This document shows positions 25,165 to 63,005 of a DNA stretch of 64,000 nucleotides, piece after piece (the stretch's first letter is position 1; the number at the start of each line of letters is the position of its first letter). The DNA is taken from assembly GCA_018242485.1 (NCBI GenBank), contig JAFEBV010000006.1:62001-126000 (forward strand), given 5' to 3'. This DNA comes from Pseudomonadota bacterium (lineage in GTDB: Bacteria > Pseudomonadota > Gammaproteobacteria > Xanthomonadales > Xanthomonadaceae). The notes under the pieces are model-generated. The model did not search any database, had not been told where the DNA came from, and worked only from the letters and a program-made list of their open reading frames with translations. The position numbers were made by a program, and so were the translations under genes.

Positions 25165-25503
25165 CAATCAAACCGCGAGGCGCGATCCGGCATGAAGGCA
25201 TGGTTCCGGGTCGTTAAGGAAACGCTGTTTCATTCGGTGTTTCCTGTCGGCCAAGGGGGGGCGACCACGAATCGATCATGCAAGTGATAGATTCTTGCGA
25301 GTCGAGTCTGGGCGTGTACCGGACTCGACGTGCGCTGATAATTTCCGGAAGGAATTATTCGGCGCTTCCCTGATACGGGATTTGGATTCTCGTTGTCGAT
25401 TGCTCGCACAATGCCGGACATGAATTTGACTTTCCCTTGACGCAACCTGCTCAGGCAAGCCATGTCCTTCGCACGAGACCACCGCACGGCCAAGGGGGCG
25501 TAT
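25165..25503. other. Intergenic region before the secreted repeat-protein cluster
   Basis: About 340 bases contain no supported gene. Two short inverted repeats stand out: GGAAAC...GTTTCC (about 25218-25246), which could end the glycosyltransferase transcript, and ATAATTTCC GGA AGGAATTAT (about 25337-25357), an operator-like near-palindrome in an AT-richer patch that may control the cluster beginning at 25504. Confidence 0.5.
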
Positions 25504-62677: not shown

Positions 62678-62779
62678 TCGTTCGGTTCTTGCGTGCGCGC
62701 ACGGCTGCACACAAGTCCAAGGCGGTCTTTGTTGCGTGCCATGAAATGGCGCGCAGGGTTGCGTCTGCCCTATCAGAGT

Positions 62780-62926
62780 GTTGAGAAAGTGCTTTCCTGC
62801 ACTTTCTCAACTCGCCGAGTCCGGCACATGTCCGGACTCGGCTCCACAGATCAATCACTTGCGTGATAGATCTGTGAGCGATCCATCCTTGGATCGCACC
62901 AGCAGGCTGTTTCTCAACAGCCTGCT
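62780..62926. repeat. Array of five nearly contiguous perfect hairpins
   Basis: Five inverted repeats follow each other with 1-3 base gaps. H1 62780-62811: 13-bp stem GTTGAGAAAGTGC, 6-base loop. H2 62814-62842: 11-bp stem GCCGAGTCCGG. H3 62845-62876: CACAGATC stem with an inner ATCAC/GTGAT stem. H4 62878-62897: GCGATCCA stem. H5 62901-62926: 11-bp stem AGCAGGCTGTT. A sixth hairpin (TCGCCGCA, 62963-62981) follows the promoter of the next gene. The motif TTTCTCAAC occurs in both H1 and H5. Stems differ from one another, so this is neither a CRISPR nor a tandem repeat. No coding sense. It occupies most of the 328-base gap 62678-63005. Confidence 0.88.
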
Positions 62927-62954
62927 ATGCGCGACTGCGCCGTCGCGGTAGATT
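62927..62954 (+). promoter_or_regulatory. Candidate promoter of the second mini-lipoprotein gene
   Basis: ATGCGC (62927-62932), a 16-base spacer and TAGATT (62949-62954), 51 bases before the ATG. It starts at the very next base after the last hairpin of the array, so the array lies just upstream of the promoter rather than in the transcript. Confidence 0.5.
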
Positions 62955-63005
62955 GGTGCCCTTCGCCGCATGGTGCGGCGACGAATCACGAACGAGGGCG
63001 CAACG

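Follow-up and report, generated by a model that had tools for sequence, protein, structure and literature searches.

The DNA analysed here, a window of 64,000 nucleotides, carries five hairpins between positions 62780 and 62926 (Table 1). They lie between two genes for short putative lipoproteins that are paralogues (37% identity, E 8e-14), as the initial annotation had held. Mapping of the arms found the hairpins where that annotation had put them, and the folding energy of the segment 62740-63000 (-144 kcal/mol) fell far below the values of 200 dinucleotide shuffles (-92.6 +/- 5.35; z -9.61), none of which was equally low. The outer hairpins have TTTCTCAAC in common, which had also been claimed, and this sequence forms the inner portion of a pair of terminal inverted repeats; hairpin 5 is built from the right end of the element and two flanking bases. 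The sixth hairpin that had been noted beyond the block is present (62963-62981), but it belongs to the leader of the downstream gene and not to the element. By direct reading of the sequence, the end of the element sits just upstream of the putative -35 region of that gene. A consensus scan, which covers consensus-type promoters, gave no promoter for that gene and no promoter or terminator at the element, and the hairpin block has no T tract.

Table 1. Coordinates of the element, its hairpins and a second family copy within the window
Feature	Position	Strand	Arms	Loop, evidence or remark
Degenerate second family copy with other type of ends	25219..25372	-		E 2.1e-6 with model R1; folded
Target duplication, left copy CTAT	62770..62773	.		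Identical to 62925-62928; CTAN pairs in relatives
Left terminal inverted repeat CAGAGTGTTGAGAAA	62774..62788	+		Same end on an IS5-superfamily IS
Hairpin 1	62780..62811	-	62780-62792/62799-62811, 13 bp	Reverse-strand loop AGGAAA, an A(N)GGA motif
Hairpin 2	62814..62842	-	62814-62824/62832-62842, 11 bp	Reverse-strand loop ACATGTG
Hairpin 3	62845..62876	-	62845-62858/62863-62876, 8+5 bp around one A.A mismatch	Reverse-strand loop GCAA (GNRA type)
Hairpin 4	62878..62897	-	62878-62885/62890-62897, 8 bp	Reverse-strand apex C-AAGGAU-G, matching the CsrA/RsmA hexaloop consensus ANGGAN
Hairpin 5	62901..62926	-	62901-62911/62916-62926, 11 bp	Reverse-strand loop GAGA
Right terminal inverted repeat, TTTCTCAACAGCCTG on + strand	62910..62924	-		End comparison
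Target duplication, right copy CTAT	62925..62928	.		Identical to 62770-62773

The element itself spans positions 62774-62924 and is bracketed by the two CTAT duplications. Type-A copies begin with CAGRNTGTTGARAAA and finish with its complement, their end-to-end distance has its mode at 151-152 bp, and CTAN stands on either side. The two flanks were identical in 37 of 66 type-A copies (15 after shuffling), and the last base of the CTAN duplication agreed in 61 of the 66, as compared to 33 in shuffled pairs. In the genome from which the window derives, the block occurs at many unrelated places, ranging from full copies of 97% identity down to fragments. A covariance-model search of the same genome gave 27 matches, and since three of these were the reverse reading of another, they correspond to about 24 loci (~152 bp). 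Sites that lack the element were recovered in relatives. A genome of the same genus (G001) has the same gene pair at the window locus with the element absent, while at a second locus (L009) genomes G004 and G002 show a single CTAG or ATAG at the place where the genome of the window has the element and its duplicate. Furthermore, identically scoring copies at different sites in genome G054 suggest that movement there may have been recent. Unrelated loci, terminal repeats, target duplications, empty sites in relatives and covarying stems together bear out the 'novel mobile repeat' that had been listed among the original options, and the block is almost certainly a mobile element. It recurs elsewhere with compensatory changes in its stems, and is not confined to the window locus. 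Plasmid and phage collections contained nothing matching it. With terminal inverted repeats, a 4-bp target duplication, dispersed multiple copies and a length too short for a transposase, the element qualifies as a MITE in almost all features tested, albeit as an unusual one.

The ends have a counterpart in an insertion sequence (IS) of the IS5 superfamily. A 1.5-kb IS on a Mesorhizobium plasmid, with a DUF772 and DDE_Tnp_1 transposase, has the same ends and CTAG on both sides. The element and this kind of IS are alike in the terminal repeat CAGGCTGTTGAAAAA and the CTAG target duplication; in contrast, the element has no transposase and the IS stretch that we inspected has no hairpin core. The initial annotation had considered that the block might be part of a known IS end, and here the ends do match a known kind of IS, although the element as such is no IS end. 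After the transposase, the Mesorhizobium IS encodes a further protein of 114 aa, a passenger that falls into no Pfam family (L253:3680-4024, + strand). A MITE with similar ends but without the hairpin core was encountered (L245/L255); at L255 it is a sequence of ~140 bp with similar CAGGCTGTTGAGAAA ends around positions 1635-1780 (genome G178). A partner transposon with the same ends was not found in the genome of the window, and a limited pattern search of the order for an autonomous partner yielded solitary or MITE-type ends only; mobilisation in trans is consequently something that we infer.

The family is widely distributed. With a covariance model trained on nine type-A copies, carriers were identified in at least 57 of 299 sampled genomes of the order (32 of 85 genera), at least 22 of 369 genomes in a sample of the class, and at least 26 of 398 in a sample of the phylum, some of them from other classes; all of these counts are lower bounds because few candidates were scored per genome. 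Carriers include Rhodanobacter, Dyella, Fulvimonas, Rehaibacterium, Arenimonas and Pseudomarimonas. Between groups, the length and the five-hairpin layout are retained and the ends vary, with CAGGCTGTTGA, AAGGAARCGCTGAAT, GGGAGNCTCTGAA with CTAG flanks (L175), and others surrounding the core. The core therefore travels with different transposon ends. Copies at six loci (L010, L011, L017, L022, L092 and L130) have extra complete hairpins nested within hairpins 1, 2 or 3, as if hairpins could insert into the loops of other hairpins.

Compensatory change provides the main evidence for the fold. In 62 distinct copies, 93.5% of cells were paired, compared to 30-42% when partners were slid, changes on both sides had occurred at 52 of 54 pairs, and the covariation score was 0.58 against 0.15 for shuffled data and at most 0.11 with slid partners. 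Because this alignment was made by fitting copies to the model, its pairing counts lean towards structure. However, two-sided changes were also seen at 15 of 30 predicted pairs when 28 type-A copies were aligned independently with MAFFT, and single copies folded alone give the same five hairpins. RNAalifold applied to the plain alignment missed hairpin 1 owing to a one-base register shift between subgroups, and the covariance model was used instead. The covariation indicates that the folded core is very probably under constraint, with selection being the cause that we infer. This constraint is likely to act on the core in a single-stranded, folded form whose loops are recognised, and the structured single-stranded element that had been proposed at the outset is compatible with the evidence. 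No family of Rfam 15 reached its gathering score in 12 loci with diverse copies, so the block does not fall into a known Rfam family, which the initial annotation had named as a refuting outcome. The best weak match on the window copy, gyrA RNA (26.9 bits against a cut-off of 45), looks like two chance hairpins.

While the stems diverge, two of the five loops hardly change. Loops were counted in copies whose fold has exactly five hairpins, a set weighted to the order. On the reverse strand, hairpin 4 reads C-A-N-G-G-A-U, with GGA in 120 of 125 copies and a free N position (T46, G34, A29, C11), and hairpin 1 is mostly CAGGA, with GGA in 116 of 125. The A(N)GGA motif occupies the loop of hairpin 4 in 119 copies and that of hairpin 1 in 103, whereas GGA appears in each of the other three loops in only 6-9 of the 125. 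The same pattern holds among 27 representatives below 75% identity, where GGA is present in 25 (hairpin 4), in 22 (hairpin 1) and in 1-2 (other loops). The distance between the GGAs of hairpins 1 and 4 is 92 +/- 2 nt in nearly all copies, and hairpin 3 is usually capped by GCAA or GTAA, both of the GNRA type.

CsrA/RsmA proteins bind A(N)GGA, preferably within an ANGGAN hexaloop, and the RsmZ-2 loop is AAGGAU (PMC3791407, PMC4066749); hairpin 4 of the window copy is exactly AAGGAU. Judged from the loop sequences, binding of CsrA/RsmA would be the best candidate explanation of the conserved loops. The csrA gene was present in all 40 carriers tested. In the phylum sample it occurred in 25 of 26 carriers and 195 of 372 non-carriers, an association confounded by phylogeny, and the sole csrA-negative carrier is a genome that is 74% complete. 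A point against binding of a hexaloop is that the outer A and U of hairpin 4 can pair and leave a four-base loop; in one study of the homologue RsmN, a five-base GGA loop was about twofold weaker and a four-base loop was weakly bound (PMC3791407, PMC4066749). That CsrA/RsmA is the ligand and acts on reverse-strand RNA is in our judgement close to an even question, with doubt slightly the heavier.

We propose that an IS5-superfamily-type transposase would move the element in trans and that intergenic copies in transcribed DNA would be co-transcribed with the host transcript and then fold. Hairpins 1 and 4 of the reverse strand, about 92 nt apart, could offer their A(N)GGA loops to a CsrA/RsmA dimer, so that a copy would function as a decoy or make part of the host transcript responsive to CsrA, and transposition would spread ready-made CsrA sites through the genome. 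Taken as a whole, a mobile five-hairpin element with a foldable core that acts as CsrA/RsmA-binding RNA is the best explanation, and we hold it in even balance between belief and doubt. A further step is more tentative: the element may be a transposable element with a protein-binding RNA as cargo, which disperses pairs of CsrA/RsmA hairpins, builds or rewires the Csr/Rsm regulon or titrates its regulator, and has been maintained over the phylum and several times given new transposon ends.

Several observations do not support a role as RNA. Orientation relative to neighbouring genes, used as a test of co-transcription, showed no bias with a home-made and approximate gene caller, the scan for promoters and terminators was empty, and wobble pairs are rare (1.6% on one strand and 2.8% on the other, without strand bias outside hairpin 3), unlike in typical structured RNA. 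An apparent excess of wobble pairs on the minus strand (85 versus 34) was discarded, as it stems mainly from conserved mismatches of hairpin 3 and is weak without them (45 versus 27); in the covariance alignment the bias was gone (53 versus 47). Random orientation and rare, unbiased wobble pairs make a DNA process that keeps palindromes a serious rival, albeit one we regard as rather unlikely. The structure would then act as DNA, in the form of single-stranded hairpins during replication or transposition or of cruciforms, template switching between arms would keep the palindromes perfect, and the loops would be met by a transposition or replication protein instead of CsrA. The arms are indeed nearly always perfect Watson-Crick helices with few wobble intermediates, and the terminal repeats themselves fold into hairpin 5 and contribute to hairpin 1. 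However, homogenisation of arms alone leaves two one-strand GGA loops unexplained while stems diverge, the MITE with similar ends does without the hairpin core, and double-stranded ends are all that DDE transposases require.

Host-serving intergenic roles have been proposed for REP and ERIC sequences, and the element could likewise be a generic structure that stabilises mRNA 3' ends, terminates transcription or insulates genes. Its fold is very stable, and 132 of 145 copies lie clear of predicted genes, at a median distance of about 60 bp. We nevertheless find this reading improbable, given that such structures have no need for invariant GGA loops, that the T tract is absent, and that copies in a given orientation are not found preferentially at convergent or downstream sites. 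The 'compound terminator/insulator' of the initial annotation is unsupported for two of the same reasons, the missing T tract and the lack of a preferred orientation to flanking genes. That the element is a REP/BIME repeat moved by a tyrosine (Y1) RAYT transposase is a reading already largely refuted and very hard to credit, since despite its palindromic, intergenic and multicopy nature, its ability to form larger folds as these repeats do, and a Y1_Tnp gene next to one type-A copy in the genome of the window (L012), the element has terminal inverted repeats and 4-bp CTAN target duplications (Y1 elements make no target duplication), has ends in common with a DDE insertion sequence, and displays no apparent GTAG or CGTC tag. 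The Y1_Tnp (RAYT-like) gene in question (L012:2129-3097, + strand) shows, as far as seen, no relation to the element's ends.

Bacterial MITEs are usually regarded as decaying IS remnants. The element resembles RUP, NEMIS/Correia, ERIC, Nezha and others in being short, non-coding, multicopy and intergenic, and shares with them the terminal inverted repeats, the target duplication and the ends held in common with an IS. In contrast to other bacterial MITEs, it has a five-hairpin core kept across the phylum by compensatory change, ends that differ between groups, and invariant A(N)GGA loops; the MITE reviews consulted make no mention of a core of this kind. QMITE2 of Coxiella burnetii is also a stably folding, intergenic MITE of similar size (150-190 bp), one copy of which is expressed as an sRNA, but its duplications are variable (7-11 nt), it contains a REP, and it is reported as one long palindromic stem (PMC5896051), differences that rule out identity with the element. 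Like RNAs of the CsrB/RsmZ type, the element strings together hairpins that include A(N)GGA loops, and the window copy shares the hexaloop of RsmZ-2; unlike them, it is dispersed and mobile, has two GGA loops per unit and no Rfam match, and the scan found no promoter or terminator of its own.

The element combines a folded core that is constrained throughout a phylum with two loops that match the binding site of a global regulator. Confirmation of CsrA/RsmA binding would mean that Csr/Rsm targets can arise through transposition and that the numerous copies could be used directly as natural test constructs. We found no description of the element in Rfam or in the open-access literature searched, which is no proof of absence; even without CsrA, a covarying family this broad and absent from Rfam would merit an entry.

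Two variants deserve mention. At L067/L044, a copy without hairpin 5 stands directly ahead of the start codon of a dxr-like gene and is possibly a domesticated leader. In genome G037 the core has been amplified, with up to five units apparently between one pair of ends. Its tandem arrays comprise five 130-bp units (L173:1129-1772) and about three 127-bp units (L174:1049-1421), the former apparently within a single pair of ends and with about ten GGA hairpins in a row.
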